Origin: Pseudoselenomonas ruminantium
Lineage (GTDB): Bacteria > Bacillota > Negativicutes > Selenomonadales > Selenomonadaceae
Assembly (NCBI GenBank): GCA_902781305.1
Contig: CACZIV010000002.1
Span: 1 to 64,000 of the forward strand
Direction: 5' to 3'
Length of the DNA: 64,000 bases
Shown: piece after piece, positions 311 through 34,179 of the stretch
Numbering within the stretch: position 1 is the first letter of the stretch
Layout of the letters: each line of letters begins with the position of its first letter
Notes under the pieces: generated by a model
The model's input: only the letters and a program-made list of their open reading frames with translations
Databases searched by the model: none
What the model was told of the DNA's origin: nothing
Made by a program: the position numbers and the translations under genes

Positions 311-390
311 GCCCGGCGGCTGATCATACTTTTCCTTCGCCATAGACAGGCTTGTCAAAAGCTGCGGAAAAGCATAATCAGCCGCCGGGC
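311..390. repeat. Short nested-palindrome element, copy 1
   Basis: A perfect 14-bp outer stem (311-324 with 377-390, GCCCGGCGGCTGAT and its complement) encloses an inner TTTTCC/GGAAAA stem (330-335 with 366-371). At the centre lies the near-palindrome GACAGGCTTGTC (345-356). It sits just downstream of mazG. There is no clear T-run after the right arm, so it is not a canonical terminator. The inner core is shared with copies near 434, 2006, 2110, 34018 and 34114; the outer stem sequence is private to this copy. Confidence 0.85.
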
Positions 391-433
391 TGCTTTCGTA
401 GTATATATTTTGGTTTACATCTATGCGGTAAGA

Positions 434-517
434 CGCCGTGGGGGGCAGATAATATTTTTCCTTTGCTTAGACAGGCTTGTCAAACGCGCCGGAAAAACAT
501 CATCTGCCCCCACGGCT
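434..517. repeat. Short nested-palindrome element, copy 2
   Basis: It has the same architecture as copy 1: an outer stem CCGTGGGGG..CAGAT (436-450) pairs with 502-515 with one bulged G, an inner TTTTTCC/GGAAAAA stem follows, and GACAGGCTTGTC is central. Copies 1 and 2 share a 5' flank, TTTTGGTTTACATCTAT, at about 284-300 and 407-423. This suggests tandem duplication of a unit larger than the hairpin, followed by replacement of both stem arms. Confidence 0.85.
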
Positions 518-642
518 TTTGTACGTTGTAAGTTGTTGCGGACAGGTCTTACCTTTTGATAGGTATCTGTACGGAGAAATCTAGTCGGTTGCTCCACCAA
601 GGGAACAATTGTCAATGATATCGTAGTGTCAGATTTATGCTA

Positions 643-739
643 AGCCCAAGGAGGGGGAGGGAGGCGATGACTTTCGGCAGCGTTAGGCAAGCCTGCATAA
701 GCAGACGAAAGTTATTGCCTCCCTCCCCCTCCGCCTTGT
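643..739. repeat. Short nested-palindrome element, divergent copy in inverse orientation
   Basis: A perfect 16-bp stem (650-665 GGAGGGGGAGGGAGGC with 717-732) is extended outward by AAGC..AAGG/CCTT..GCTT and inward by ACTTTCG/CGAAAGT. Read on the minus strand, the heart follows the same scheme as copies 1 and 2 (YTTTC, TCTGC, CAGGCTTGCC, GCTGCC, GAAAG). It is therefore probably a diverged, inverted relative with a purine-rich outer stem. Confidence 0.7.
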
Positions 740-819
740 GCTTCGAATAAAAAGTATCTGTATACATTGGTTGTATCTTGTAAAAGTCTGAAAATATATA
801 GTAAAAAATAAACAAACTA

Positions 820-848
820 TTCTCAAACATTAAATATTTCGTTATAAT
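820..848 (+). promoter_or_regulatory. Sigma-A type promoter for a candidate small RNA
   Basis: TTCTCA (820-825) and TATAAT (843-848) are separated by 17 bases. The predicted start at about 855 coincides exactly with the first base of a closing stem (855-859 with 958-962). No ORF with a ribosome site follows within 350 bases. Confidence 0.5.
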
Positions 849-854
849 AAATAT

Positions 855-985
855 AACGAACCTACGAAAACTGTGCCTTAGAAAGGTTTTTGTCAGGAAG
901 ATGGCTGAAACACCGCCCCGCTGATAATGTAAAAGTGCATTAGGCAACGTAGACACCTCGTTCAGCGGCAAAGCCGCCTATTTGA
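855..985 (+). ncRNA. Candidate structured small RNA of unknown family
   Basis: Behind the promoter, AACGA (855-859) pairs with TCGTT (958-962), CTACG (862-866) with CGTAG (948-952), and TGCCT (874-878) with AGGCA (942-946). TCAG/CTGA and GGC/GCC pairings lie inside. A GCGGCAAAGCCGC hairpin (about 965-977), followed by a weak TATTTG tract, could end the transcript. I compared it by eye with 6S, SRP, tmRNA, RNase P and common riboswitch motifs and did not recognise any. The pairing is seen in the sequence; the RNA itself is inferred. Confidence 0.4.
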
Positions 986-1270
986 AAATAGCAAAAACAA
1001 TAGGTATTCCCAAATAGCTAATGCCTATGGGATAGAGGGCGTAGTGCTACGTCCAGTTGTAGTAGTTGCTGCGTAGACCGCTTGCTTGGTGAGGTCTTCC
1101 CACTTACTCGGCTTGTCGAGAGCAGTTAATGAGCAATAAAGTTTATTAAAAACGGTAATATTATTTGTTAAGTTTTGTTATAAACATAGCATGCTATACT
1201 GATAATAACTATCTATACCCTGTTGGGGGCGTTGAAAAGGATTTCGGTTTTGTCACAGGAGGAGATTGTC
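986..1270. other. Unassigned intergenic stretch with small hairpins
   Basis: No ORF with a ribosome site is seen. Local hairpins include ATAGGTATT..AATGCCTAT (about 1001-1029), CGTAGTGCTACG (about 1040-1051) and CTCGGCTTGTCGAG (about 1107-1121). AT-rich sequence with a TATACT box at 1195-1200 leads into the next gene; no well-spaced -35 box is visible. Confidence 0.4.
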
Positions 1271-1984
1271 ATGTCGAATAACATCAGTACGAATTTTGCG
1301 GCCTCGTTTTATCAGAATATGGGCCAGGTGGGGAAGAAAGGACAGAGTGCGCAGAAGAAGGAGCAGGCACAGGAGCCGTTTTCTCCGTATATGCCGGAGA
1401 CGCAGGTGGAGTTGTCGGCGGATGGACTGGCGTTAGCTGGGCAGCAGAAGGCCGGCGGTACGCAGCTTTCGCAGAAGGCGCAGGATTTGTTTGCCAAACT
1501 GCAGGAGAAGTATGGGGATTATGATTTTTTCGTGGCCGAAAATCAGGAGGACATGAAGAATTATATGGATAAGGGCACCAAGCAGTATTCGGTGGTCTTT
1601 ACCAAAGAAGAATTGGAGCATATGGCCAGTGATGATGAATATGCAGAAAAGGTTATCGGTCAGATGGAATCGGCCATTGATATGACCAAGCGCCTTGAAG
1701 ACAGTGGCAAACTCGGTGAAGGCGTGCATTTTAAGCAGGTGGCGATTACCTTTGACGATGAAGGCAATATGAAGCTCTTTGCCCAGTTGGAAAAGATGAA
1801 TGCTGAGCAGCAGGAACGGCTGGAAGAAGCAAAAGAAAAGAAGGCTGAGGAAAAGGAGAAAGCCGCCAAAGAAGCAGTGGAGAAGGAAAAGGAACAGGCG
1901 AAGCTGCCGCCGCGTAATATTGTGGAGATTGAGGCGAGCTCGGAGGAGGAATTGCTGGAGAAGATATTGGGGATTAAGTGGTAG
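1271..1984 (+). CDS. DUF6033-like hypothetical protein, highly charged
   Basis: A 237-residue protein. ATG 1271 is chosen because AGGAGG lies 8 bases upstream at 1257; an upstream in-frame start at 1223 lacks a ribosome site. There is no signal peptide or membrane segment. The N-terminus is Gln/Lys-rich and disordered. The middle carries a YDFFVAENQEDMKNYMDKG-like segment reminiscent of DUF6033 family proteins of Firmicutes. Residues about 175-215 form a long Glu/Lys/Ala helix, probably a coiled coil. The gene stands alone between nested-palindrome elements. Function is unknown; the DUF assignment is from memory of the motif and only moderately certain. Confidence 0.7.
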   Translation: MSNNISTNFAASFYQNMGQVGKKGQSAQKKEQAQEPFSPYMPETQVELSADGLALAGQQKAGGTQLSQKAQDLFAKLQEKYGDYDFFVAENQEDMKNYMDKGTKQYSVVFTKEELEHMASDDEYAEKVIGQMESAIDMTKRLEDSGKLGEGVHFKQVAITFDDEGNMKLFAQLEKMNAEQQERLEEAKEKKAEEKEKAAKEAVEKEKEQAKLPPRNIVEIEASSEEELLEKILGIKW

Positions 1985-2005
1985 TTAACATATGCACATT
2001 AAGAC

Positions 2006-2087
2006 GCCCGCCGGACCGGTAATATTTTTCCTTCGCCATAGACAAGCTTGTCAAAAGCTACGGAAAAACATCACCGGTCCGGCGGGC
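2006..2087. repeat. Short nested-palindrome element, copy 4
   Basis: A perfect 15-bp outer stem (2006-2020 GCCCGCCGGACCGGT with 2073-2087) surrounds an inner TTTTTCC/GGAAAAA stem and a perfect 12-bp palindrome GACAAGCTTGTC at 2041-2052. It starts 22 bases after the stop of the preceding gene. Confidence 0.85.
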
Positions 2088-2107
2088 TTTGTTCATGTTG
2101 TATGAGT

Positions 2108-2175
2108 AATAGCTTCCCTTCGTTGAGACAGGCTTGTCAAACGCTGCGGAAAACCATCACCCGCAGGGCGGGCTT
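2108..2175. repeat. Short nested-palindrome element, left arm missing
   Basis: The core (TTCGTTGAGACAGGCTTGTC) and the right arm (CACCCGCAGGGCGGGC, about 2159-2174) are present. The expected left outer arm is absent and the sequence runs directly from the previous copy's flank. Extra GGCTTTGTT units at about 2083, 2171 and 2188 suggest rearrangement by recombination between copies. Confidence 0.7.
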
Positions 2176-2258
2176 TGTTTGTAGCAGGCTTTGTTCGTAT
2201 TAGCGGGCTTGGCATATATTGGAGGAAAATGATTTAATTTTATGTTAAGGAAACTTCA

Positions 2259-2287
2259 TTGACTAGCGGGAGTCGGTGTAGTATTAT
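2259..2287 (+). promoter_or_regulatory. Sigma-A promoter of the glycosylation operon
   Basis: TTGACT (2259-2264) and TATTAT (2282-2287) are spaced by exactly 17 bases. The predicted transcript starts about 37 bases before the TTG start of the GtrA-family gene. Confidence 0.7.
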
Positions 2288-2330
2288 GGTTTGGTGGTGA
2301 CCTTTAAATAACGTTTATGGAGGGACGTTT

Positions 2331-2753
2331 TTGGCCGATATGATTTTACGTAAGGTTCGTGAAGAACTTTTTGATTGGCGATTTATAAAATTTGTGCTGG
2401 TGGGGATAATTAATACATTTTCCTGCTCATTCTTTGCGTGGCTGTGTCTGGATATCGTTTTGGATGCCAACATCGCTTTTGTGATTGGGTATTTTGCCAG
2501 TAATGTGATGGCCTATATCATGAATGGTGTATGGATTTTTCCAAGTCCGCTGACATGGAAGGGTTATGGCAAGTTTGCGTTGTCTTATGTGCCCAATTTT
2601 ATCTGTGAAAATTTGGTGGTGGGGCTTTGCTACAATCTGTTGGGGATGCCTCCAGTGGTCAGCTATTTGTTGGCGGCTGTATTGGCGGTGCCTATCACTT
2701 ATGTATTGGTGAAGTATTTTGCTTTTGGAGGCGCAAAGAAGAATGTTAAATGA
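2331..2753 (+). CDS. GtrA family membrane protein (lipid-linked sugar flippase type)
   Basis: A 140-residue protein with four predicted membrane helices and the GtrA-type opening F-x-K-F-x-L-V-G-x-x-N near residues 17-28. GtrA proteins are thought to help move polyprenyl-phosphate-linked sugars across the cytoplasmic membrane. TTG 2331 is preferred because GGAGGG lies 6 bases upstream; the ATG at 2340 is too far from it. It is the first gene of a four-gene operon and overlaps the next gene by 11 bases. With the GT39 and GT2 genes behind it, it probably serves modification of a cell-surface glycan or lipid. The sugar is not evident from sequence. Confidence 0.85.
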   Translation: MADMILRKVREELFDWRFIKFVLVGIINTFSCSFFAWLCLDIVLDANIAFVIGYFASNVMAYIMNGVWIFPSPLTWKGYGKFALSYVPNFICENLVVGLCYNLLGMPPVVSYLLAAVLAVPITYVLVKYFAFGGAKKNVK

Positions 2754-4182
2754 GAAAAAGCATCTTTGGATATTGGGAGGTCTGTGGCTTCTGCTTTATA
2801 TAGTGGGGAATCATCTGTTGACCATAACGGACCCTGTGGAATGCAACTATGCAGAAACAGCCCGGGAAATGCTGCTCTATGATGATTATTTTTCTCCGCG
2901 TATCTTTGGGAATTATTGGTTTGATAAACCGATTTTTTTCTATTGGGAATTAGCGGCAGCATTTAATCTTTTTGGGTTTACCAATTTTGCTGCGCGTTTG
3001 GCACCGGCGTTGACGGTACTGGCCTCGATAGCCTTGCTTTACTGGTGGGGGAAAAGGCTGTATAATGCCAAAATTGCCTTTGCGGCGTCGCTGCTTTTTG
3101 CGACTTCCCTGGAAACCTGGTATGTGGGCCATGCGGTCGTTACAGATATGACCTTGCTGCTGACGGTGTCTTTGACCTTGATTGCCTTTTATTGTGGTTA
3201 TCAGCAGAAAAATTATAACTGGTATTATCTGGCCTTTGCTTCTGCAGGAGTGGCGGTATTAGATAAAGGCCCGATTGGTTTGGTTCTGCCGGGGCTTATC
3301 ATCGTGCTCTTTTTGCTGTGGCAGAGGGATTTCAAGGCGCTGTTGGTAAAACAGCTGCTGGGCGGCTTTGTCTTGTTCGGGTTGGTCGCAGGCATTTGGT
3401 ATGTGCCCATGTATATGAAGCATGGACAGGATTTTATTGATATTTTCCTGGGGGTTCATAATGTGATGCGGGCAACTGTGTCCGAACACCCTCGTGATGA
3501 TGTCTGGTATTACTACATTGGCATCTTTTTAGCGGGTTTCTTTCCGTGGGCATGGGCAGCCATTCCTGCTTTTATCAAAAGATGGCGCAGAGGTTGGCGC
3601 CTGAAACTGGATACGAATACACGTTTCCTGCTGGTGTGGGCGGTAACGGTGTTTGCGCTCTTTCAGTGTTTCGCTACAAAATATGTTACCTATACTTTTC
3701 CGTATATGTTCCCTGTGGTTCTTTTGATGGCGCGCCACTTCTGCAACTGGGGAAAGAAACTGCTTTATGGTGTGGCTGTGATGGCGGTGGTTTATTGGGG
3801 ACTGCTTTTTGGGGTAGCAGTTCCGCAGATGGAGCGTCATTCGTCCTATGGCATGGCTATGGCGGCAAAGCCTTATCTGGAGCAGGGCGTGGAGCCATAT
3901 AGCTTTGGGCGGAGCGATGGCGTGGTGGCGTTCACTTATTACAGTGGGCACTTTATCAAGGACCTTGTATCGCAGGAAGAGTTGGATGAGGAGCGTAAGC
4001 TGGATTGGAGTGTAACGAATATACTTCCTAAGTTCAGTTTTGAGGCAGTGGAAAGAGATAAGCCGATGCTCGTGATTGTGGGAGAAAAAAGTTTCGAAGA
4101 TTTACAGAAAAAGCTGCCGGGCAAATGGACGTTACTGGAGAAGGGACGCAGAAATAGTTTGTACTATCGAGCAGCTGACTAG
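2743..4182 (+). CDS. Glycosyltransferase family 39 (ArnT/PMT-like) membrane protein
   Basis: A 479-residue multispanning membrane protein. The N-terminal helix is followed by a periplasmic loop with TDPVECNYAETAREM (about 29-44) and later DKPIFFYW, the acidic and aromatic motifs of GT39/PMT_2 enzymes such as ArnT. These use polyprenyl-phosphate sugars as donors on the outer face of the inner membrane. ATG 2743 is chosen over TTG 2719 because GGAGG sits 11 bases upstream. It overlaps the GtrA gene and is 14 bases from the GT2 gene, so donor synthesis (GT2), flipping (GtrA) and transfer (this protein) form a natural three-step route. The acceptor, whether lipid A, teichoic-like polymer or protein, is unknown. 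Confidence 0.85.
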   Translation: MLNEKKHLWILGGLWLLLYIVGNHLLTITDPVECNYAETAREMLLYDDYFSPRIFGNYWFDKPIFFYWELAAAFNLFGFTNFAARLAPALTVLASIALLYWWGKRLYNAKIAFAASLLFATSLETWYVGHAVVTDMTLLLTVSLTLIAFYCGYQQKNYNWYYLAFASAGVAVLDKGPIGLVLPGLIIVLFLLWQRDFKALLVKQLLGGFVLFGLVAGIWYVPMYMKHGQDFIDIFLGVHNVMRATVSEHPRDDVWYYYIGIFLAGFFPWAWAAIPAFIKRWRRGWRLKLDTNTRFLLVWAVTVFALFQCFATKYVTYTFPYMFPVVLLMARHFCNWGKKLLYGVAVMAVVYWGLLFGVAVPQMERHSSYGMAMAAKPYLEQGVEPYSFGRSDGVVAFTYYSGHFIKDLVSQEELDEERKLDWSVTNILPKFSFEAVERDKPMLVIVGEKSFEDLQKKLPGKWTLLEKGRRNSLYYRAAD

Positions 4183-4196
4183 GGGGAAGACAAACA

Positions 4197-5123
4197 TTGA
4201 AAAGTGTATCGATTGTTGTGCCAGTCTATAACGAAGGGGAGAATATCCTGCATTTCACTAATGCAGTTAAGGAGGTTATGGACAAGCAGCCGTATAAATG
4301 GGACTTGTTATTTGTAGATGACGGCTCAAGGGATAACAGTCTGGAACTATTGGAGGGCCTGCAGGCACAGTATGAGAATATCAAGGTGCTGGCATTATCC
4401 CGCAATAGAGGACATCAGATTGCGTTGACCTGTGGTCTTGACCATGCCAAAGGAGATGCAGTCATCTCCATGGATGGCGATATGCAGCACCCGCCTGCAC
4501 TTATTCCAACTTTGTTGGCTAAGTGGGAGGAAGGCTACGAAATTGTTCAGACCATTCGTCAGGATACGCAGGGGGTTTCCTGGCTAAAGAAGAAAACCTC
4601 GAAAATGTATTATCAGCTCATCAACAATTTGTCCAATGTGCATATCCGTCCCGGCGGGTCGGATTTCCGCCTGCTCGACAGGCGGGCCGTGGATGCTATG
4701 AATCAGTATCGGGAGCATGACCGTTTCCTGCGGGGCATTGTTACGCTGTTGGGCTTTAACTTTGCCGAAGTTCCCTTTGTGGCGCCGCCACGTTTTGCCG
4801 GCGAGTCCAAGTACTCGCTGAAAAAGATGGTGAAGCTGGCTGTCGATGGCATTGTGGGGTATTCGGTACTGCCTTTGCGAACGGCTTTTATCATGGGCAT
4901 TTTTCTGGCCTTTCTCAGTGTTTGCTTTACTGTGCATGCTCTTTATGTATATATCAACGGCGAGGCCGTATCCGGCTGGACGACCATCATGGTGTGCATG
5001 TCTCTGTTCGGCGGTGCACAGCTGATTATTTTGGGCATTATGGGGGAATATCTGGGCCGTATTTATACGGAGGTTAAGAATCGTCCCTTGTATCTGATTA
5101 AGAATCAAGAGGTAGAAAAGTGA
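4197..5123 (+). CDS. Glycosyltransferase family 2, polyprenyl-phosphate sugar synthase type (GtrB/ArnC-like)
   Basis: A 308-residue protein with an N-terminal GT-A domain: VPVYNEGENI near residue 8, FVDDGSRDNS at about 39-48 and MDGDMQHP at about 91-98 for nucleotide-sugar and metal binding. Two C-terminal membrane helices follow (about 225-250 and 262-285). This is the layout of DPMS/GtrB/ArnC enzymes that load a sugar onto undecaprenyl phosphate at the cytoplasmic face. TTG 4197 is used, with AGGGGGAAG 7 bases before it. Its last four bases overlap the start of the YdjC-type gene. The sugar cannot be read from sequence. Confidence 0.88.
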   Translation: MKSVSIVVPVYNEGENILHFTNAVKEVMDKQPYKWDLLFVDDGSRDNSLELLEGLQAQYENIKVLALSRNRGHQIALTCGLDHAKGDAVISMDGDMQHPPALIPTLLAKWEEGYEIVQTIRQDTQGVSWLKKKTSKMYYQLINNLSNVHIRPGGSDFRLLDRRAVDAMNQYREHDRFLRGIVTLLGFNFAEVPFVAPPRFAGESKYSLKKMVKLAVDGIVGYSVLPLRTAFIMGIFLAFLSVCFTVHALYVYINGEAVSGWTTIMVCMSLFGGAQLIILGIMGEYLGRIYTEVKNRPLYLIKNQEVEK

Positions 5124-5968
5124 AAAAGCTGATTGTCAATGCCGATGATTTTGGCCGTCAGCCGCTAATCAATCAGGCGGTGGCAGAGGCCGTGGATAAA
5201 AAGGGCTTATTGTCAACTAGTCTGATGGCTGGTGAGCCGTATTTTGCGGAAGCCGTTGAGATTGCGAAAAAACGCCCACAGTTAGGTGTGGGCGTGCATT
5301 TGACATTGGTGGACGGCAAGCCAGTGCTCCCCGCCGCAGAAATACCGACATTAGCTGTTAATGATGGCTGTTTTTTGCCTGACCATGGTGCCTTTGTAAA
5401 GCATTATGTGCAGGGCAAAATTGCCCATGAAGATATCGAGCGGGAATTGGCGGCACAGCTGGATAAGGTGCTGCAGGCAGGTATTACGCCGACCCATGTG
5501 GATAGCCATCAGCATATGCATATGCTGCCGGGGATATTTCCGCTGGCCTTGAAACTCGCGGCAGAGCGTGGGATTAAACGTGTGCGGATTTCCCGAGGGA
5601 TTTATGGCAATCCTTTTACCCCGTGGCCGGGCCTTGGCGATTTGGTCGGGAAATTTGGCTTGGAAACCTTGTCCTGTATTGACCGGCGGCAGGCAAAAGC
5701 GCAGGGCTTTGCCTGCCCGGATAATTTTGTTGGGCAAGTGGCCGGCGGCGCAGTGACGGCTGACTTCATGAAAGAGTTGGCCGAAAACTTCACGGATGGT
5801 TCTGTGGAAGTGATGCTGCATCCGGGGCTGGAGAATGCGCCCTTGATTAAGGTAACCGGCTGGCAGCATGATTATGAAGCCGAGTTCCATGCGGTATGTA
5901 ACGAGGAGGTCCAGGAACTCTTAGCCCATAAAGGCATAAAACTGGCCAATTTTGGTGATTTATCATAA
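5120..5968 (+). CDS. ChbG/HpnK (YdjC) family carbohydrate deacetylase
   Basis: A 282-residue protein. The N-terminal VNADDFG (about 5-11) and the HVDSHQHMHM segment (about 126-135) supply the metal-binding Asp and His residues of the YdjC fold. Family members remove an acetyl group from N-acetylated sugars: ChbG from chitobiose, HpnK from hopanoid-linked GlcNAc. GTG 5120 overlaps the preceding stop (GTGA), indicating translational coupling. In this operon it most likely trims an N-acetyl sugar already attached to the lipid carrier, which is inference. A strong hairpin terminator follows directly. Confidence 0.85.
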   Translation: MKKLIVNADDFGRQPLINQAVAEAVDKKGLLSTSLMAGEPYFAEAVEIAKKRPQLGVGVHLTLVDGKPVLPAAEIPTLAVNDGCFLPDHGAFVKHYVQGKIAHEDIERELAAQLDKVLQAGITPTHVDSHQHMHMLPGIFPLALKLAAERGIKRVRISRGIYGNPFTPWPGLGDLVGKFGLETLSCIDRRQAKAQGFACPDNFVGQVAGGAVTADFMKELAENFTDGSVEVMLHPGLENAPLIKVTGWQHDYEAEFHAVCNEEVQELLAHKGIKLANFGDLS

Positions 5969-5970
5969 TC

Positions 5971-6014
5971 AAAAACCCCGTCAGTAACGTGTAATAACGT
6001 TCTGACGGGGTTTT
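5971..6014. terminator. Bidirectional terminator
   Basis: AAAACCCCGTCAG (5972-5984) pairs with CTGACGGGGTTTT (6002-6014). It ends the glycosylation operon on the plus strand and the small minus-strand gene facing it. Confidence 0.85.
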
Positions 6015-6017
6015 GTG

Positions 6018-6317
6018 TCATAGACTGTTCAGTTCAACTTTGAAAGCATCTTGCGCATAAATGGATAATTCCTGCTGCTTGCTTTTGAAATCCACAACAA
6101 AAGCAGGCTGAGGCGGTTCCTGACTGAAGGTTTCCAATTCCTTTAGTCCCTGTACAGCGTCCAAACGGGCCATTAGCGAATGCAGCGGCGGTAGACTGGA
6201 GGCTTCATCTTCTTTCGCGGTTTTTGCCATCGCGATAACACTCAAAAGATGGTTTTGCTGATTCTTTATCTCCTCCATGTGGTTGTGGGGGAGCATAGGC
6301 ATAACTTTCACATCCAT
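6018..6317 (-). CDS. Small soluble hypothetical protein
   Basis: A 99-residue protein of unknown function. ATG 6317 is chosen because an excellent AAAAGGAGGAAGC ribosome site lies just upstream; a longer in-frame version from 6458 would overlap the neighbouring gene and lacks a site. The sequence is mostly helical and charged, with an MDVKVMPMLPHNHMEEI start and a Pro-rich turn (QEPPQPAF) two-thirds along. There is no signal peptide, membrane segment or cysteine pair. It is transcribed alone toward the shared terminator. I do not recognise the family. Confidence 0.7.
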   Translation of the reverse strand: MDVKVMPMLPHNHMEEIKNQQNHLLSVIAMAKTAKEDEASSLPPLHSLMARLDAVQGLKELETFSQEPPQPAFVVDFKSKQQELSIYAQDAFKVELNSL

Positions 6318-6385
6318 GTTGCTTCCTCCTTTTAATTCCACGGATAATAACCCTACTCTAATGATAGCAGGAATTGCAACATCTG

Positions 6386-6874
6386 TCAATGCAATGTCTG
6401 AATTTTTAATATTTTTATAGACAGCCAGCCGATGCAAAGTCCGGTAATGAGGCCGCAAGGGCCTAAGATAGGGAGGTAACGGAAGATGTTCAGGGTATCT
6501 GCGGCGAGGGCAGCCAGAAAGAGCTGGCCAAGGTGATGGCTGAAACCGCCGGCTGCGCTGATGCCCCAGATGGAGAAGCGGCTGGTATTTTTTAAGGCGG
6601 CCATTAGGGAAAGACTGATGAGGCCGCCTGCCAGGCTATAGAGAAAGACCGTAGGCCCTCCGCCGAAAAAGGAAGCCAGTCCGGTGCGCAGGAGGACGAT
6701 GAAGAAACTGGCGCGAAAGCCTAACGTATAGAGGGCGCAGACGGTGACGATGTTGGCCAGTCCTAACTTGGCGCCGGGAGCGATAAACGGCAGGGGAATT
6801 AGCCCTTCCACGAGAAAAAGCACCAGTGAAATAGCCGTCAAGAGGGCGATATATAGATAGTTTTTCAGTTCCAT
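6386..6874 (-). CDS. Gx transporter family / heptaprenyl diphosphate synthase component I-like membrane protein
   Basis: A 162-residue hydrophobic protein with about five membrane helices. It carries the family's PGAKLGLANIVTVCALY segment and an LRTGLASFFGGGPTVFLYSLAGG motif. The family (Hpre_diP_synt_I) resembles ECF-type substrate-binding subunits; despite the name, most members are probably transporters. It lies 3 bases downstream of the NusG-II domain gene, a pairing common in Firmicutes genomes and often linked to quinone or redox functions. No catalytic motif is visible and the substrate is unknown. Confidence 0.85.
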   Translation of the reverse strand: MELKNYLYIALLTAISLVLFLVEGLIPLPFIAPGAKLGLANIVTVCALYTLGFRASFFIVLLRTGLASFFGGGPTVFLYSLAGGLISLSLMAALKNTSRFSIWGISAAGGFSHHLGQLFLAALAADTLNIFRYLPILGPCGLITGLCIGWLSIKILKIQTLH

Positions 6875-6877
6875 GGG

Positions 6878-7240: not shown

Positions 7241-7251
7241 AACTATTATTA

Positions 7252-7280
7252 TAGACTTAACTATACCATTTTGCTATACT
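7252..7280 (+). promoter_or_regulatory. Promoter of alr
   Basis: TAGACT (7252-7257) and TATACT (7275-7280) are spaced by 17 bases, giving a start about 30 bases before the alr ATG. It lies in the short divergent region with the NusG-II operon. Confidence 0.55.
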
Positions 7281-7316
7281 TAGTAATGAAATTTGCGTAA
7301 AAGGAGTGTGGGGGTA

Positions 7317-8451: not shown

Positions 8452-8654
8452 GCCGCCAGCGGTGCTGCTTGCCACGCGGTGCTCGGCGGCTCGCTAAAAA
8501 ATCTCCTTTGCCTTTAATTAAGCATGGCTAAAAGTCAAAACTCGCTACGCTCAAACAGTAGACTTTTAACCATGATATTAAGGTGGGCAAAGGAGATTTT
8601 TCTTTACGCTCACTCGCCTGACGCTCCGCTTAGGCAAGCATCACCGCTGGCGGC
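8452..8654. repeat. Long nested-palindrome element 1 (about 200 bp)
   Basis: The outer arms are GCCGCCAGCGGTG..TGCTTGCC (8452-8473) and its near-complement at 8633-8654. Inside are AAAAATCTCCTTTGCC (ending 8512) with 8586-8601, then AAAAGTC (8530-8536) with GACTTTT (8561-8567). The loop on the minus strand reads GTTTGAGCGTAGCGAGTTT. The stacked stems would form a very long interrupted hairpin. It begins 28 bases after alr. Confidence 0.85.
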
Positions 8655-27014: not shown

Positions 27015-27026
27015 TATTGAAATGAT

Positions 27027-27062: not shown

Positions 27063-27132
27063 GTCAATTGATGCAGAAAAAATAACTAGGGAAATATAGG
27101 GCCGTTTGAGTGAACAAAGGGGCGATTTTGTC

Positions 27133-28101
27133 ATGAAACGTAGAGAGTTTCTGAAATCTGCAGTGGCGTTCTTAGGATGGTTTGCTATAGGCGGTATGTC
27201 TATGGGCTTTGCCAAGGAGAGGGATTATTATCATATTCTGCTTATCAGCGATTTGCATCTGCCTGTGCGGAAGAAAAATTTTCCGGATAAGGACGTGCAG
27301 AAAGACGTTTGGGCGAAAAAACAAAACCTGTTAAAAACAGTGAATGCCTGGGGGGATGTGGATGAAGTCGCTTTGCTGGGAGACTTGGCTGCCCGTTATG
27401 GCAATGAGAAAGAGTTCCGCGTGGTAGATGATTATCTGGGTCAGCTGCAATTTCCTTATTATGCGGTGGCAGGTAATCATGATTACGCATACAAGGATGA
27501 GCCGGTTAAGTCGAAGAAGGGCAAAAAGCACAAAAAGGCAGAAGGGACTTTAGCAGAGAAACGGGCCAAACTGGCAGCTTTTCAAAAGCGGTATCATTTG
27601 CCTGGTGCTTATTATGCCCGTGATGTGGGGCGGTGCCGCCTGCTTTATCTGTCACCGGATGGCTGCCGCAGTTCGGTGGACATTGCGGATGAGCAGCTGG
27701 CCTGGCTGAAGAAGGAGATTGCGGCCCATCGCCATGGGCCGATATTGTTCTTTTTTCATGGCCCGATTAGGGGAACTTTGCGTACCTATAATAAGAAGAT
27801 TAACACCGTGGCGGCCACTGCACAGCCGTCGCAGAAACTGTTGGAAATTTTGGCAGATGTTCCGCCGGGCAGTTTGTGGATATCCGGTCATACGCATACG
27901 CCGCCGACTAATGACAGTTATGCGGATATCCGTGTGAATCGCATCAATGAAAATCTGGTCAATATCCATAATCCGACAATAGATGCGCGGCATTTGTACA
28001 CCAATTCACTTTATATTTACCAAGACCGTATTGTCATTCGTACTTACGATTATGATAATGGCGTTTGGCTGGACGAGTTGGAACGGACATTTCCCTATTG
28101 A
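27133..28101 (+). CDS. Tat-exported calcineurin-like metallophosphoesterase
   Basis: A 322-residue protein with a twin-arginine type start, KRREFLKS, followed by a hydrophobic stretch (about 9-25). The phosphoesterase motifs are ISDLHLP (about 37-43), LLGDLAARYGN (about 76-86), AGNHDYA (about 107-113) and SGHTHTPP (about 248-255), which bind two metals. ATG 27133 is chosen with AAAGGGG about 10 bases upstream; this gives a proper Tat signal, whereas TTG 27106 would bury it. A Lys-rich insert (about 118-135) is unusual. It probably acts as a periplasmic or surface phosphohydrolase; the substrate is unknown. Confidence 0.88.
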   Translation: MKRREFLKSAVAFLGWFAIGGMSMGFAKERDYYHILLISDLHLPVRKKNFPDKDVQKDVWAKKQNLLKTVNAWGDVDEVALLGDLAARYGNEKEFRVVDDYLGQLQFPYYAVAGNHDYAYKDEPVKSKKGKKHKKAEGTLAEKRAKLAAFQKRYHLPGAYYARDVGRCRLLYLSPDGCRSSVDIADEQLAWLKKEIAAHRHGPILFFFHGPIRGTLRTYNKKINTVAATAQPSQKLLEILADVPPGSLWISGHTHTPPTNDSYADIRVNRINENLVNIHNPTIDARHLYTNSLYIYQDRIVIRTYDYDNGVWLDELERTFPY

Positions 28102-28240
28102 TGTGGCGGGGTGAAAACGGTTGGCAGTGCTTGTTTTCAGGCTGCAGAAAACAGGCGTTTTATAGCGAAAAAAACTTGCATAAGGCCTTGTAAATGTGTT
28201 ACTATTTACTGGAGACTGTAATTAAAGGGAGGCTTATCTA

Positions 28241-28468
28241 ATGCTTACCGTTTTGATGATAATTGATGCTTTAGTGGCTATTGGCCTTATCGCATCGGTA
28301 CTGGGACAGGAAGCAAAATCCGCTGGCATGGGCGGCATGGGCGGCGGTGCTGACACCGTCTTCTCCGGCAAGGCACGGGGAATGGATGCCCTGCTGGCGC
28401 GGGTGACGGTGGTACTTGCCATCTTGTTTGCCATTATCACCATGGTGATTGCCAAAATGACAAGCTAA
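28241..28468 (+). CDS. secG: Preprotein translocase subunit SecG
   Basis: A 75-residue membrane protein with two helices (about 1-22 and 50-72) joined by a Gly/Met-rich loop, MGGMGGGADTVFSGKARG, the typical SecG linker ending before the LLARVT helix. It is part of the SecYEG translocon in the cytoplasmic membrane. ATG 28241 has GGGAGG upstream. It opens the conserved secG-esterase-rnr-smpB cluster, followed by a weak hairpin that may act as a partial terminator. Confidence 0.93.
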   Translation: MLTVLMIIDALVAIGLIASVLGQEAKSAGMGGMGGGADTVFSGKARGMDALLARVTVVLAILFAIITMVIAKMTS

Positions 28469-28484
28469 TAGCGCTATAGCGGTC

Positions 28485-28517
28485 AAATCCCTGTTCTCTT
28501 ACGAGCAGGGATATTTT
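28485..28517 (+). terminator. Hairpin after secG, possible attenuating terminator
   Basis: AAATCCCTG (28485-28493) pairs with CAGGGATATTTT (28506-28517). It has a short T-run interrupted by A and lies immediately before the esterase gene, so read-through is plausible. Confidence 0.55.
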
Positions 28518-28536
28518 GAATTTTGGGGGTGGAAAG

Positions 28537-29271
28537 ATGATTTTACCGGGAGCGGAGCCCTTCTTTATGCCTGGTGGGGAAAAGGGTGTGCTTCTGATTC
28601 ATGGGTTCACGGGGCTGCCGGCAGAACTTTTGCTGATGGGACAGCATTTGAATAAGGCGGGCTTTACGGTATTGGGGGTGCGGCTCGCAGGTCATGGCAC
28701 GACGGTAGAGGACATGAGTCATATGACCTGGGAAGACTGGATGGATTCGGTGCGGGATGGCTATGCCCTGCTGTCTGGCTATTGCGAGGAGATTTCCGTT
28801 ATCGGTCATTCGATGGGCGGACTTTTTGCTCTGCTTTTAGCTACGGAAGAAATCGTATTCCATGTGGTGACGCTGGCGGCACCCATCTTTATCCCCGAAG
28901 AACGGGGCCTTGCGGCACTGCCGCCGCGTGAGGCCTGCTATGGCGGTTTTGTGCCCAAGGCGCGCCGCCGGCTGAAAAACGTTCCACCAGCTGCCAACTG
29001 TACCTATCGGAAAATGCCGTTGATTTCCATTCACGAACTGGTGGATGTTATTGAAAAGACCAAGGGAGCTATCGAAGAAGTGACGGCTCCGGTGCTCATC
29101 ATGCACAGCCGTGATGACCATACGGCCGCGCCGGTGAGCGCGGATTACATCCTGTCCCATGTAAAGGGGCAGGCGCGAATCGTCTGGCTTAATGAATCCG
29201 GGCATCTGCTGCCCCTGGCCAGCGAAAGAGAGAGAGTTTTTGAAGAGGCTGCGGCCTTCCTGCAAGCTTAA
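28537..29271 (+). CDS. Carboxylesterase/monoacylglycerol lipase-like alpha/beta hydrolase
   Basis: A 244-residue serine hydrolase. LLIHGFTGLPAEL (about 21-33) forms the oxyanion region, the nucleophile Ser is in VIGHSMGGLFAL (about 87-98), the catalytic Asp in MHSRDDHTA (about 189-197) and the His in NESGHLLPL (about 216-224). It resembles the Est30-type carboxylesterase that accompanies secG and rnr in many Firmicutes. ATG 28537 follows GGGGGTGGAAAG. It lies 33 bases before rnr. The physiological ester is unknown. Confidence 0.9.
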   Translation: MILPGAEPFFMPGGEKGVLLIHGFTGLPAELLLMGQHLNKAGFTVLGVRLAGHGTTVEDMSHMTWEDWMDSVRDGYALLSGYCEEISVIGHSMGGLFALLLATEEIVFHVVTLAAPIFIPEERGLAALPPREACYGGFVPKARRRLKNVPPAANCTYRKMPLISIHELVDVIEKTKGAIEEVTAPVLIMHSRDDHTAAPVSADYILSHVKGQARIVWLNESGHLLPLASERERVFEEAAAFLQA

Positions 29272-29304
29272 CGGCAGGAGAATCGAAATTTGTAAGGAGA
29301 ACAA

Positions 29305-32025
29305 ATGGACTTAAAAGAAAGAATCCTCGCTTATATGCGGGAAAGTGCCTATAAACCCTTAACCGAAGAGGATTTAGGCGAAGCTATGGGGCTGACGGAT
29401 GAGGAGCTGGTGGATTTCCCCGTGGCGCTCGAAGAACTGGAAAGAGAAGGCGCCATTATCAAGAACCGCAGCGACCTGTACGGCGTGCCGAGCCGGATGC
29501 ATCTGGTGGTGGGGCGCATCTCTATGACGGCCAAGGGCTTTGGCTTCATCATTCCCGACGTGCGGGAAACGGAAGAGGAAACGGATGTATTCGTGCCCGC
29601 CAATGCTGTGGGTTCTGCCATGCATGGGGACCGCGTAGTGGCCCGTGTCACGCCGGCGCAGGAGGAAGGTCGTTCCCGCGAGGGAGAAATCATCCGCATT
29701 CTTGAACGGGCCAATGAAAAGATTGTGGGCACGTTTGAGCGCAGCAAGACCTTTGGCTTTGTAACGCCGGATAACGTGAAACTCACGCAGGATATCTTTG
29801 TGGCGAAAAAGTTTTTTAAGGGTGCTAAGACCGGCAGCAAGGTGGTCGTAAAAATCACCAAATGGCCGAATGGCCGCCGCAGCGCGGAAGGCGAGGTCAT
29901 TGAGGTGCTGGGCAAGGTGGGCGACCCCGGTGTGGATGTGCTCTCCGTTATGCGCCAGTATGATTTGTCAGAGACCTTCCCCGAAGATGTGCAGGCAGAA
30001 GCCACGGCTACGGAAACGGAACCGAATCCGGCGGAATACGCAGGACGCCGCGATAGGCGTGATTTGCAGATTGTGACCGTTGACGGTGAGGATTCCAAGG
30101 ATTTGGACGATGGAGTCTATGCCCGCAAGAATCCCGATGGTTCCTTCTTCCTGGGCGTGTATATCGCCGATGTGAGCCATTATGTCCGGGAGCATGCGCC
30201 GCTTGACCGGGAAGCCTATGCCCGCGGGACGAGCGTGTATCTGGTCGATCGGGTTATTCCCATGCTGCCCAAGGAGCTTTCTAACGGCATCTGCAGTCTG
30301 AACGCCGGCGTTGACCGCCTGTCCATGGCCTGCGAAATGCAGATTTCGGCAGATGGTGAGGTAACAAGCTACGAGATTATCCCGACGGTGATTCATGTTT
30401 ACCGCCGTCTGACGTACAATATCGTCAATAAGGTTCTCGTGGACAAGGCAGAGCCGTTCTTGTCCGATAATGAGGATATTCTGCCGATGCTGGAAACGCT
30501 GGCCGAGCTGCGCCATGCCTTAAAGGCCAAGCGCCATCGCCGTGGCTCGATTGATTTTGACCTGCCGGAGGTCAAGGTCAAACTGGATGAAAAAGGTCAT
30601 CCGGTGGCGCTGATTAAGCGCGAAGGCAGCCTGGCCGAATCCATTATCGAAGAATGTATGCTGATTGCTAATGAGACTGTGGCCCGCCATATGGACACGA
30701 AGAATCTGCCCTTTATGTACCGTGTTCACGAGCAGCCGAGCGAAGAAAAAATCGAGCGGCTCAACAATCTGCTGGCAGCCTTTGGGCTGTTCGTCAAGCA
30801 GGATGAGCAGGGGCATATTCAGCCGATGGACGTGCAGAAGGTACTGGAAAAGGTCGAAGGCCGTCCCGAGGAACGGATTATCAGCACGGTATCTTTGCGC
30901 TCCATGCAGCAGGCGCGCTACAGCGAATTGAGTCTGGGCCATTTCGGTCTGGCTGCCCGCTACTATACGCATTTTACTTCGCCGATTCGCCGCTATCCGG
31001 ATTTGATTGTGCACCGTTTACTCAGGGAGACTTTTGCCACGGGCAGCCTGCCGGTAGAGCGTCAGGCCAAGCTCAAGATGGTTCTGCCGGAGATTGCCGA
31101 CCATACTTCCCAAAGGGAGCGCGTGGCCATTGAGGCGGAACGGGAAACCACGGACATGAAGAAAATCGAGTACATGGCACAGTTCGTGGGTGAGGAATTC
31201 ACCGGCGTTATCAGCGGTGTAACCGCCTTTGGCATCTTTGTGGAGCTCGATAACGGCGTGGAAGGTTTGGTTCATGTTTCCACCATGACCAATGACTATT
31301 ACGAATATGTGGAAGAACAATATGCGATGATTGGTGAGCGCACCCGCACGCGGTACCGTCTGGGTGACGAGGTTGAGGTAATCCTGGCGCGCGCCAATGT
31401 GGAGGAACGGAATTTGGATTTTGTGTTAAAAGACAACGGCCAGTATGTGCCGGAGCGCCCTGTACAGAAGGGCCAGAACAGCAATAAGGGCAAAGGGGAA
31501 AGAAAGCCCAAGGCTCCGCGTCCCAAGAAAAAGCCGCTGCTGGAAGATGAACTGATTGCGGAACCCATGCTGACGGAAGAAGAAACCAAGCAGAAGGAAC
31601 AGAAAGAGCATAAACCGCGCAAACACAATGGGCATAAAAAGCGCGGTGCTTCCGGGGAAAAATTGGCCCATACGGATAAGCGCGAGGGCGAAGCCCGCAA
31701 GCCGAAGGCTGACCGCAGCCGCCGTCAGGGCAAGGCAGAGCGCGCCGATAAGGAAAGCCGCATGGGTGCAGGCTCTTTCCGGGGCGAGAACCGCCGCAAT
31801 CGCGAAGAACGCCGCAGCGACAAAGAGGTGGGTTACCATCGCGTTTATGTGACGGGACTCAACAGCGCCGTTTGGCCGGACCCTCCCGGATACCATGAAA
31901 AGAAGGAACGGGAACTGGCAGCCGCCGCTGCTAAAGCCGAAAAGGAAAAGTCCAAGAAATCCCGCGGCTCCCGCCGTCCTCGTCCGCATCGCAAGACCGA
32001 AGGCGGTACAGCTAACAGCAAATAA
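29305..32025 (+). CDS. rnr: Ribonuclease R with long basic C-terminal tail
   Basis: A 906-residue 3'-5' exoribonuclease. N-terminal winged helix (about 1-60), two cold-shock domains (VVGRISMTAKGFGFIIPD about 67; GTFERSKTFGFVTPDN about 143), the RNB domain with DGEDSKDLDDGV (about 260-271), and an S1 domain with GVISGVTAFGIFVELDNGVEG (about 634). From about residue 715 a Lys/Arg/Glu-rich, low-complexity tail of about 190 residues follows, longer than in most homologues, including a conserved-looking island YHRVYVTGLNSAVWPDPPGY (about 844-863). It degrades structured RNA and takes part in trans-translation. smpB lies 12 bases downstream. Confidence 0.95.
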   Translation: MDLKERILAYMRESAYKPLTEEDLGEAMGLTDEELVDFPVALEELEREGAIIKNRSDLYGVPSRMHLVVGRISMTAKGFGFIIPDVRETEEETDVFVPANAVGSAMHGDRVVARVTPAQEEGRSREGEIIRILERANEKIVGTFERSKTFGFVTPDNVKLTQDIFVAKKFFKGAKTGSKVVVKITKWPNGRRSAEGEVIEVLGKVGDPGVDVLSVMRQYDLSETFPEDVQAEATATETEPNPAEYAGRRDRRDLQIVTVDGEDSKDLDDGVYARKNPDGSFFLGVYIADVSHYVREHAPLDREAYARGTSVYLVDRVIPMLPKELSNGICSLNAGVDRLSMACEMQISADGEVTSYEIIPTVIHVYRRLTYNIVNKVLVDKAEPFLSDNEDILPMLETLAELRHALKAKRHRRGSIDFDLPEVKVKLDEKGHPVALIKREGSLAESIIEECMLIANETVARHMDTKNLPFMYRVHEQPSEEKIERLNNLLAAFGLFVKQDEQGHIQPMDVQKVLEKVEGRPEERIISTVSLRSMQQARYSELSLGHFGLAARYYTHFTSPIRRYPDLIVHRLLRETFATGSLPVERQAKLKMVLPEIADHTSQRERVAIEAERETTDMKKIEYMAQFVGEEFTGVISGVTAFGIFVELDNGVEGLVHVSTMTNDYYEYVEEQYAMIGERTRTRYRLGDEVEVILARANVEERNLDFVLKDNGQYVPERPVQKGQNSNKGKGERKPKAPRPKKKPLLEDELIAEPMLTEEETKQKEQKEHKPRKHNGHKKRGASGEKLAHTDKREGEARKPKADRSRRQGKAERADKESRMGAGSFRGENRRNREERRSDKEVGYHRVYVTGLNSAVWPDPPGYHEKKERELAAAAAKAEKEKSKKSRGSRRPRPHRKTEGGTANSK

Positions 32026-32037
32026 TGAGGTGAGCAA

Positions 32038-32511
32038 ATGGGCAAGAAAAATATCGGCATGAAGGTGGTCTGTGAAAACCGCAAGGCGCGCCACGATTAC
32101 TTCATACACGAAACCTTTGAGACGGGGCTTGCCCTCGTGGGGACAGAGGTAAAATCCCTGCGTGCAGGCAAGGCCAACCTCAAGGACAGCTATGCCATGA
32201 TTAAGGATGGGGAAATTTTTGTGGAAAATATGCACGTTTCCCCCTATGACCAGGGCAATATCTTCAACCATGACCCGTTGCGGGCCAGAAAACTTTTGAT
32301 GCACAAGAGCGAGATTGTTAAACTCTTTGCCAAGACCCGCGAAAAAGGGTTCACACTGGTACCGCTTAAAATCTATTTCAAAAACGGCAAGGCCAAGCTG
32401 GAACTGGCACTGGCCTCCGGTAAGCACAACTACGATAAGCGGCAGGATTTACATGAAAAGGCCGCCAAGCGGGAAGTGGAACGGGCGCTCAAAGATAGAC
32501 AGCGCTACTGA
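32038..32511 (+). CDS. smpB: SsrA-binding protein SmpB
   Basis: A 157-residue protein. [20 protein letters not shown] (about 11-30) and [20 protein letters not shown] (about 34-53) are the SmpB core, and the tail [21 protein letters not shown] carries the conserved basic helix. It escorts tmRNA to stalled ribosomes. ATG 32038 has GAGGTG upstream. It is the last gene of secG-est-rnr-smpB. tmRNA itself is not in the following 150 bases, where a branched inverted repeat lies instead. Confidence 0.96.
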
Positions 32512-32524
32512 TTTGTAATATTGT

Positions 32525-32638
32525 AAAGTACCTGCCTTTGATGTTATAACGACATGTTAACATGTCGTTGAAACGCTGCAAGGAAGATTTTGCCGATGGC
32601 AAAATTTGAACAATTGCGTTATAATAGGCAGGTACTTT
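32525..32638 (+). promoter_or_regulatory. Branched inverted-repeat structure between smpB and the permease
   Basis: A perfect 13-bp outer stem (AAAGTACCTGCCT 32525-32537 with 32626-32638) is extended by TTATAACG/CGTTATAA (32544-32551 with 32617-32624). Inside are a perfect 18-base palindrome, CGACATGTTAACATGTCG (32550-32567), and the hairpin ATTTTGCC-GAT-GGCAAAAT (32587-32605). Together they draw a three-way junction. TTTTAATTTT follows, so it may terminate smpB transcription or act as a leader for the permease 23 bases downstream. I do not recognise it as a known riboswitch. Confidence 0.6.
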
Positions 32639-32661
32639 TAATTTTGAAGGGGAATAATTTT

Positions 32662-33999
32662 ATGAATGAGAATGGTAACTTAAAGCGGGGGCTAAAAAAC
32701 CGCCACCTGCAGATGATTGCCCTGGGCGGTGCCATTGGCACGGGCCTGTTCTACGGTTCGGCCTCGACCATTGCACTGGCGGGGCCGGCGGTCATGCTGG
32801 CTTATCTGATTGGCGGCATTATGATTTTTTTCATCATGCGTATGTTGGGGGAAATGGCAGTAGATGAACCGGTGTCCGGCTCGTTCAGCCATTATGCGAC
32901 GAAATATTGGGGCAAGTTTCCCGGCTTTATGTCCGGTTGGAATTATTGGTTTAACTATGTGCTGGTATCCATGGCCGAGCTTACGGCGGTGGGCATTTAC
33001 ATGCAGTTCTGGTTCCCGGATTTGCCGCAGTGGATTGCGGCGCTTATCTGTTTGGTGGCCATTACGGCGCTGAATCTAATCAATGTGCGGTTGTATGGGG
33101 AAACCGAATTTTGGATGGCGCTGATTAAGATTACCGCCATCGTGTTGATGATTGTGCTTGGCGTATATATTCTGTTGGGCAGTCCGCAGCCCTTCCCCGA
33201 CAACCTCAGCAATCTTTGGTCCTATGGCGGCTTTTTGCCCAATGGTGTATGGGGCCTGGCTCTGGCCATTGCGGTGGTCATGTTCTCTTTTGGCGGCATT
33301 GAGCTTATCGGCATCACCGCCGGCGAAGCGGAAAATCCTGATAAGACCATCCCGACGGCTATCAATCAGGTTATCTGGCGTATTCTCATCTTCTATGTGG
33401 GCACGATGGCGGTTCTTATGGCACTTTGGCCCTGGAAGGAAGTCGGCATGGAGGCCAGCCCCTTCGTGCAGATTTTCATGAGCGTGGGCATTCCGGCGGC
33501 AGCCCATATCCTTAATTTCGTGGTGCTGACGGCGGCGGTGTCGGTTTACAACTCGGCCATCTACAGCAACAGCCGTATGCTCTATGGTCTGGCGGCTAAG
33601 AATGAGGCGCCAAAGTTCTTAGGTGAGCTTTCGAGCCGCGGCGTGCCGGTGCGGGGAATTTTCGTTTCCTCGGGCATAACGCTTATCTGCGTGGCGCTGA
33701 ATTACTTTTTCCCGGGGCAGATTTTTATGCTGCTGATGTCCATTGCCACGATAGCCGCGACCATCAGCTGGCTCACGATTGTCATCACCCATCTGAAATT
33801 CCGGGCATATTGCAAGGCACACGGGAAAGAGACAAAGTTCAAGTCTCCGCTCTATCCCTTCATCAACTATCTGTGCATCGCCTTCCTGCTGAGCATCTGG
33901 GGCCTCATGACCCAGATTGAGGGTATGGATTTGGCGGTATATATCCTGCCGGCATGGCTCCTGTGTCTATGGCTCGGCTTTAAGTATCAAAATAAATAA
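32662..33999 (+). CDS. Amino-acid permease (APC superfamily, AAT type)
   Basis: A 445-residue protein with about 12 membrane helices. The N-terminal RGLKNRHLQMIALGGAIGTGLFYGS (about 9-33) is the hallmark of AAT permeases for aromatic, basic or Pro/Ala/Gly uptake. FSFGGIELIGITAGEAENPDKTIP (about 211-234) is the second conserved segment. ATG 32662 follows AAGGGG; the longer frame from 32590 runs back through the inverted repeat. It is monocistronic. The amino acid transported is not evident from sequence. Confidence 0.92.
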   Translation: MNENGNLKRGLKNRHLQMIALGGAIGTGLFYGSASTIALAGPAVMLAYLIGGIMIFFIMRMLGEMAVDEPVSGSFSHYATKYWGKFPGFMSGWNYWFNYVLVSMAELTAVGIYMQFWFPDLPQWIAALICLVAITALNLINVRLYGETEFWMALIKITAIVLMIVLGVYILLGSPQPFPDNLSNLWSYGGFLPNGVWGLALAIAVVMFSFGGIELIGITAGEAENPDKTIPTAINQVIWRILIFYVGTMAVLMALWPWKEVGMEASPFVQIFMSVGIPAAAHILNFVVLTAAVSVYNSAIYSNSRMLYGLAAKNEAPKFLGELSSRGVPVRGIFVSSGITLICVALNYFFPGQIFMLLMSIATIAATISWLTIVITHLKFRAYCKAHGKETKFKSPLYPFINYLCIAFLLSIWGLMTQIEGMDLAVYILPAWLLCLWLGFKYQNK

Positions 34000-34017
34000 C
34001 CGAAATATTAACTTAAA

Positions 34018-34084
34018 AGACCTTGATGCCTTTTTCGCAGCGTTTGACAAGCCTGTCTAAGCGAAGAAAAAGGTATCAAGGTCT
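34018..34084. repeat. Short nested-palindrome element, copy 6 (inverse orientation)
   Basis: AGACCTTGAT.CCTTTTTC (34018-34036) pairs with 34066-34084 with one mismatch; the heart GACAAGCCTGTC is the reverse complement of copies 1 and 2. The right flank CTTTGCGTAG matches the next copy. Confidence 0.85.
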
Positions 34085-34113
34085 TTGCGTAGATACGATA
34101 AGTTTACATAAAG

Positions 34114-34179
34114 ACCGGGAGGCCTTTTTCCGCAGCGTTTGACAAGCTTGTCTAAGCGAAGGAAAATGCTCTCCCCGGC
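34114..34179. repeat. Short nested-palindrome element, copy 7 (inverse orientation)
   Basis: ACCGGGAGGCCTTTTTCC pairs imperfectly with GGAAAATGCTCTCCCCGG around the perfect palindrome GACAAGCTTGTC (34141-34152). It lies 30 bases after copy 6 in the same orientation, between convergent genes. Both end in CTTTGCGTAG. Confidence 0.85.

Follow-up and report, generated by a model that had tools for sequence, protein, structure and literature searches.

Known Extragenic Palindromes and the Selenomonas Hairpins

The closest described counterparts of the hairpins treated here are the repetitive extragenic palindromes and bacterial interspersed mosaic elements (REP/BIME), whose GTAG and CGTC super-families are treated by Di Nocera et al. 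(2013, PMC3733652). In that paper, the stems given for REPs of the CGTC super-family measure 8-9 bp and their loops 4-5. We analyzed a stretch of 64,000 nucleotides from Pseudoselenomonas ruminantium (GCA_902781305.1, contig CACZIV010000002.1, positions 1 to 64,000; referred to as the window), part of a draft assembly of 2.79 Mb in 121 contigs with 88.6% completeness, in which a sequence-only reading had pointed out seven short nested palindromes with a common heart and changing outer stems. We put at about 0.5 the probability that these belong to a lineage-specific, high-copy, REP/BIME-like extragenic hairpin family of Selenomonas that acts at transcript ends.

Similar to REP/BIME, the units are short palindromes in high copy number. 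For the most part they lie downstream of genes, in gaps where the neighboring genes are co-directional or convergent; they frequently form groups containing both orientations and fall into subfamilies with alternative, complementary stem residues. A CGTC-like tag at one end may correspond to the unpaired CGTC of CGTC REPs (among the 127 copies of the source genome, CGTC in 57, CGCC in 42, another form in seven, and no tag found in 21), and CGTC REPs, too, lack a dedicated transposase. In contrast to CGTC REPs, the Selenomonas unit has some 25 pairs or more (27 in the consensus), in a nested hairpin interrupted by internal loops. It further differs from REPs in a shaft of nearly constant length between the conserved base and the apex, in conserved wobbles, and in a lineage-specific apex; and where adjacent units are oppositely oriented, they occur as -+ only and never, unlike in REP/BIME, in the reverse order. 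The Selenomonas family shows the broad features of REP/BIME and falls outside the REPs in the strict sense by its stem size and transposase. Neither Selenomonas nor Firmicutes is mentioned in the part of PMC3733652 drawn on here, and a literature search covering the best-ranked results and few subscription journals returned no such family described for Selenomonas or Negativicutes.

GTAG REPs are associated with a Y1 tyrosine transposase (REP-associated tyrosine transposase, RAYT), whereas the corresponding profile, PF01797, does not fit the Selenomonas units. It matches in 13 of 22 genomes of the genus; however, it has no match in the unit-bearing G104 (a single contig with 106 covariance-model matches), G072, G129, and G135 (an 86% complete draft), and it is present in G122, G114, and G109, none of which has units. 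In the source genome it matches a fragment at a contig edge and a second copy, which is split in two and adjoins undetermined bases. The REP-associated transposase that the sequence-only reading had suggested looking for is thus not supported as the partner, and Selenomonas appears to hold a REP-like system which the usual transposase does not fit.

Copy Number and Distribution

The heart, searched with up to two mismatches, gave 137 matches (56 + 81) in the source genome against 0 + 0 for a reversed-pattern control; at up to three mismatches, where the palindromic core is counted in part on both strands, there were 94 + 105 against 9 + 3. In a scan of 151 genomes of the family Selenomonadaceae at up to two mismatches, the heart was abundant only within the same genus (G016 165, G137 125, G135 117, G141 110, G143 58, G072 28, and G104 26), and the remaining genomes stayed at control level. 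When named genomes were scanned, each of the 80 loci among the matches listed came from a Selenomonas ruminantium record. Within the genus, the hairpin family is restricted to a single clade, consisting of Selenomonas ruminantium and its neighbors.

The genome-wide covariance search that the sequence-only reading had proposed bears this out. A covariance model (R1), built from 64 copies of the source genome, recovered six of the seven window copies on the expected strand with E values of 2.1e-14 or better, and found matches in 13 of the 22 genus genomes and none in nine. Counting the best 150 candidates per genome, with the two strands of a unit sometimes both counted, matches numbered at least 150 in G000 and G016, 147 in both G135 and G137, 145 in G141, 107 in G143, 106 in G104, 102 in G072, 39 in G129, 38 in G126, 30 in G043, 21 in G087, and one in G118. 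Our collection comprises 354 distinct copies, 127 of them from the source genome. Long nested hairpins carried the heart in 93 of 106 cases, in a sample biased by the DNA having been fetched by the heart. A known Rfam family is not supported as the identity of the units, as an Rfam scan of the window gave nothing at gathering score except a tRNA; a permissive Rfam search of positions 200-2300 gave sub-threshold matches only, mostly to microRNA models.

Anatomy and Fold of the Unit

Each unit is a single long hairpin with a conserved base, a variable shaft, an inner stem, internal loops, and a small apical hairpin. In an alignment of 64 of the 127 source-genome copies, every second one (A1), the base reads AAGCC / GGCGYCTT plus a short unpaired stretch, and above the variable shaft is a conserved inner stem, GATG..TTTTCC / GGAAAA..TATT. 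Beyond this, in our reading of the loops, come a 3 x 3 internal loop and GC/GC, then an asymmetric loop, and at the apex GACA-AGCY-TGTC. The distance between the ends and the heart hardly varies: the 3' tag starts 29-31 nt past the 19-nt core in 102 of the 106 source-genome copies in which it was found, and the AAGCC-type 5' motif starts 33-35 nt ahead of the core in 99 of 115, being not found in 12. Two wobbles of the inner stem are conserved (columns 33/78 with GU in 48 of 64 copies, AU in nine, and GC in none; columns 30/81 with GU in 30, AU in 20, and GC in seven). Stem subfamilies are exemplified by AAGCCCG..GGCTGGTGATG, by AAGGAGGGGAGGGGCGGCAATG, and by the terminator-like AAAAGCCCGG..AACTATTTCT; units of the main class have base, flanks, and heart all in common.

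The two strands are not equivalent. As RNA, the heart strand gives the better fold of the two in 121 of the 127 source-genome copies (mean -56.8 compared with -48.3 kcal/mol); as DNA it does so in 118. By a crude test, 94 copies have TTTT at neither end of the stem and 33 have it at one end or at both, so that the absence of T-runs from most copies, as noted in the sequence-only reading, holds true.

Two further long nested hairpins were seen in the source genome at locus L054 on contig C37 (2924-2993 and 5940-6001). Their apices are TACGCG..CGCGTA-like and their stems 19-23 pairs long; they are perhaps a second, smaller family of the same architecture.

Covariation of the Stem Arms

That the outer stems are self-complementary despite their changing sequence is confirmed by alignment A1. 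Against the consensus structure, two-sided changes occur in 23 of the 27 pairs, 95.3% of cells are paired compared with 76.5% in shuffles (0 of 500 as high), and two-sided cells number 294 compared with 68.8; slid controls were 44-52% paired. Several shaft pairs appear in all four Watson-Crick types (e.g., column 26/85, with UA 28, CG 15, AU 11, and GC 6). Copies are thus neither few nor the product of random decay without complementarity, which is ruled out by covariation far above both shuffles and slid controls. The further claim that outer stems have no sequence in common goes too far, given the conserved ends of the shaft, its nearly constant length (102 of 106), and the subfamilies.

For 138 orthologous unit pairs (flank identity at least 84%, high-scoring segment pair of at least 1000, full comparison window), 87 were at least 85% identical over 129 nt, which rules out free rewriting of the stem at every locus. 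Change counts and rates were taken from these 87 pairs, a filter that favors conserved units. Changes rise outward from 1.4% in the core to 1.8% in the next 10 nt, 3.2% at 11-22 nt, and 4.9% at 23-34 nt, and reach 14% outside the unit at 35-55 nt. Among 1214 shaft pairs there were 77 one-sided changes (35 to GT, 20 to AC, and 22 other) and eight two-sided changes, six of them from one Watson-Crick pair to another. Given these low in-place rates and the 77 against eight changes, stems are conserved in place, drift for the most part in one arm at a time, and are re-matched over longer times.

One might instead explain the matching of the arms as mainly mutational, with replication template switching at quasi-palindromes copying one arm from the other and little selection needed. 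The mechanism is published (PMC8794818, PMC8604942), and according to Monttinen and Loytynoja (2022, PMC8794818) template switching is able to produce perfect stems or to restore pairing. As in that account, we found matched multi-base changes in both arms, although RNA genes are concerned there and a dispersed repeat family with few candidate events here. At a terminator locus designated D (see below), the unit interior of G141 is the reverse complement of that of G137 with one difference in 49 (20 in direct comparison), beside a matched 5-bp block change in both arms and a left flank 97.5% identical to that of the source genome; this apparently fits an in-place inversion by templated copying, with exchange with another copy as the alternative. 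Further, a 1-nt insertion at locus A in G143 is matched in both arms, and between L035 and L155 both arms have been replaced together within flanks of 97% identity. However, exchange with another copy would explain the L035/L155 case as well, one-sided changes far outnumber two-sided ones between close orthologs, and the conserved wobbles have not been corrected to Watson-Crick pairs. In-place inversion of the heart is also ruled out as a common event, as it was found in none of the 88 mapped pairs and in the single case at locus D. We therefore regard template switching as the main cause of arm matching as distinctly unlikely. The sequence-only reading had offered compensatory selection and templated copying as the two possible causes; there is some support for each, from compensatory changes between orthologs on the one side and from the inversion and matched insertion on the other, and neither is proved. 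In this family, hundreds of hairpins that have tip and base in common and differ in their stems, many of them at orthologous positions, form a natural series, which makes directly testable the old question of whether pairing is kept by structural selection or by template-switch mutation.

Orientation Relative to Genes and Proposed Function

Among the 354 copies, 267 are intergenic, 47 lie within an open reading frame (ORF) of at least 100 aa as called by a crude caller, and 40 are at locus edges. The median distance to the 3' end of a flanking gene is 72 nt (n = 160), in agreement with the downstream placement described in the sequence-only reading. Unit-bearing gaps are flanked by genes oriented ++ in 47 cases, -- in 33, +- in 40, and -+ in 13; compared with other gaps of the same loci, convergent gaps are enriched and divergent ones avoided (P 9e-5 and 4e-6, respectively, values that are optimistic since copies were pooled over related and hence non-independent genomes).

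Units are single or in arrays, with a same-strand spacing of mostly 111-131 nt. Where the flanking genes are co-directional, 77 of 93 first units lie antisense to them, as do 35 of 39 middle units and 27 of 61 last ones. Adjacent units are oriented -- in 61 pairs and ++ in 35 (96 in the same orientation) and -+ in 38, with no +- pair, so that both orientations do occur as first described, the 38 opposite neighbors being all -+. From these counts, the better-folding strand is usually transcribed toward the gene past whose end the unit lies, and arrays often close with a unit of the opposite direction. Orientation was constant in 88 of 88 mapped cross-genome pairs. So strict a relation between the orientation of units and that of genes needs to be explained at transcript ends.

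Blocking or protection of transcript ends would be the most likely role. The hairpins may stop or hinder read-through by RNA polymerase, protect RNA 3' ends, or both. Since it is RNA transcribed toward the followed gene that takes the better fold, they would mainly hold off antisense or convergent read-through, defending the gene end against RNA from the other side. Copies would turn over through array expansion, contraction, and exchange between units, in addition to dispersal. The stems would not be rewritten at each locus; instead, the arms may be kept complementary in that units whose arms drift are disfavored over time, with occasional correction by template switching.

Several observations weigh against this proposal. 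The mRNA of the upstream gene forms the weaker fold, opposite to what is expected of a simple stabilizer of mRNA 3' ends, and most units lack the T-run expected of an intrinsic terminator. The family is absent by the covariance model from nine relatives in the genus and is therefore dispensable. Across all copies the shaft has 120 GT/TG compared with 95 AC/CA (P 0.10), i.e., no clear RNA-strand bias; and short-term selection on pairing appears weak, because a non-pair (AC or another mismatch) results from 41 of the 77 one-sided changes and GT exceeds AC by only 35 to 20 (P 0.058, which like the P of 0.10 is optimistic for the reason given above).

The near balance of GT and AC is what would be expected if the RNA strand were irrelevant and the palindrome acted as duplex or cruciform DNA, i.e., as a site for a chromosome-organizing or topology protein, as has been proposed for REPs. 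The perfect 12-bp palindrome of the core would suit such a site; however, the conserved wobbles and strict orientation to genes point to a strand-specific, transcription-linked role, and the hairpin stays while the apex changes between species. We consider a DNA site very unlikely.

Terminator-Like Units and Orthologous Loci

Similar to intrinsic terminators, the units lie just past stop codons, and some of them carry A/T tracts and occupy places at which relatives have simple terminators. They differ in that 94 of 127 have no T-run and in their common apex, common base, and orientation rule. The statement that they are not ordinary terminators fails for the subset with A/T tracts at terminator positions, which was compared by eye at four loci (A-D).

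Locus A (window 34016) has a nested hairpin in six of the 21 genomes shown (G000, G137, G141, G143, G072, and G104) and a simple hairpin terminator in most of the remaining ones, with no terminator visible by eye in G087, G129, and G114. In G016 (L198), after the ortholog of the gene at 32590-33999, the left arm and the start of the heart are kept and are followed by unrelated DNA with a simple terminator of its own; this unit is broken by an insertion or rearrangement. At locus B (L027), a nested unit is present in six of 22 genomes (G000, G135, G141, G137, G072, and G104), and simple terminators are found in G016 and G143, both unit-rich genomes. Locus C (L056) has a terminator-like unit in seven of the 11 genomes readable on the left flank (G000, G137, G135, G016, G104, G129, and G087), a main-class unit only in G072 and G126, a remnant in G143, and a heartless terminator in G043. 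At locus D (L064), a unit is present in nine of the 16 genomes shown (G000, G135, G141, G137, G143, G104, G072, G129, and G126). Its stems GCCCGGTACGACTATTTTC, GCCCGGTATAACTGTTTCT, and GCCCGGGGTAACTATTTCT are each matched by the opposite arm; the orthologous stem has therefore changed on both sides. The apex at this same position differs between lineages.

As terminator-like units occupy the places of simple terminators in relatives, the heart could be a module lodged in the loops of ordinary terminators, with the outer stem being the pre-existing terminator. The heartless terminator of G043 at locus C, whose stem resembles heart-bearing ones, would fit this. However, that stem agrees in 18 of 22 positions with the G087 unit of the same locus and equally in 18 with a G104 unit from another locus, so that neither orthology nor direction is proved, and units of the main class share base and flanks besides the heart. 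Loop capture accordingly strikes us as highly improbable.

The heart itself is lineage-specific, and the conservation claimed for it does not extend to related species, which carry other apical hairpins. The apex is GACARGCYTGTC in the S. ruminantium group, GRCG..CGTC in G129, G126, G087, and G043, and GAAGC..GCTTC at a few loci of G104 and G072. The pattern GTTTGRCG..CGTCTCAGC occurs 13 times in G129, seven in G043, twice in G126, and once each in G087 and G072, with none in G000, G016, G137, G143, G104, G080, and G122. The GAAG..CTTC apex is rare (three in G104, four in G072, and one each in G129 and G126), so most units of G104 and G072 carry other apices. One tentative and rather unlikely possibility is that the apex is read by a co-evolving trans-acting factor, the stem being a sequence-free spacer of nearly constant length between two recognized ends; if true, transcript ends would carry an exchangeable, lineage-wide address.

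Turnover and Dispersal of Units

Of 134 ordered comparisons of orthologous regions, nine with Ns were set aside. Unit number was equal in 68 of the 125 usable ones and unequal in 57, three of which had no unit on one side. Two of these zero counts are one ORF-caller artifact and the third is a genuine empty site: a three-unit array of the source genome is missing at the same place in ATCC 12561.

These findings could suggest that the units are non-autonomous mobile elements which a transposase or recombinase, acting in trans, moves in the form of single-stranded hairpins, with strand asymmetry and constant length serving as recognition features and gene-end position reflecting insertion tolerance. 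Such elements would be consistent with the high copy number in some genomes of the genus and absence from others, with the varying array sizes and the empty site, and with the better folding of one strand. However, PF01797 does not track the units, no target duplication is evident by eye at the single empty site, and there is one genuine empty site in 125 comparisons, although the sample was fetched by the heart and is hence biased against empties. We consider mobility unlikely as the main explanation, though a credible one.

Chimeric or replaced units were found in the L001/L168 and window/L127 comparisons. Both seem chimeric at the heart, with each arm from a different copy, which suggests recombination between copies or, in draft assemblies, misassembly.

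Units and Other Repeats in the Window

Six of the seven window copies contain exact GACARGCYTGTC, with cores at 345, 470, 2041, 2127, 34046, and 34141, and the seventh is divergent. In all seven, the better-folding strand is the one reading TTTGACAAGCYTGTCTA, which places four or five of them on the minus strand.

The array at 311-732 starts with two complete main-class units on the minus strand, 311-390 (heart core 345-356; 101.6 bits with model R1) and 435-516 (heart core 470-481; 94.4 bits). It is closed in the opposite orientation by the divergent-heart unit of the GGAGG-stem subfamily at 650-732 on the plus strand (arms 650-681/701-732; 86.4 bits). The complete main-class unit at 2006-2087 (minus strand; heart core 2041-2052; 99.6 bits) is followed by a truncated, weakly folding one at 2108-2176 (minus strand; 52.1 bits over positions 21-79), which retains heart and inner stem and has lost one outer arm, its outer arms being non-complementary. 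On the plus strand, the terminator-like unit (AAAGACC...GGTCTTT) at 34016-34086 (80.3 bits) lies between an amino acid permease gene (32590-33999, plus strand) and a convergent molybdopterin oxidoreductase gene (34209-36227, minus strand). The second unit of this gap, at 34113-34179 on the plus strand, has a left arm partly decayed relative to its G137 ortholog and is the one copy that model R1 did not list.

Elsewhere in the window, a Tn916-type tyrosine recombinase is encoded at 45033-46301 on the minus strand, with matches to the Tn916 integrase DNA-binding domain (5.6e-26) and to Phage_integrase (7.4e-30). An integrative element may therefore be located in the vicinity. Inverted repeats of about 105 nt, similar in layout and with a TTAATTAA-like stretch beside one arm, were seen at window 8497-8601 and at L062 2824-2927, and are possibly another dispersed repeat; similar TTAATTAAAAGGCAAAAA stretches occur in G099 and G132 at locus B.

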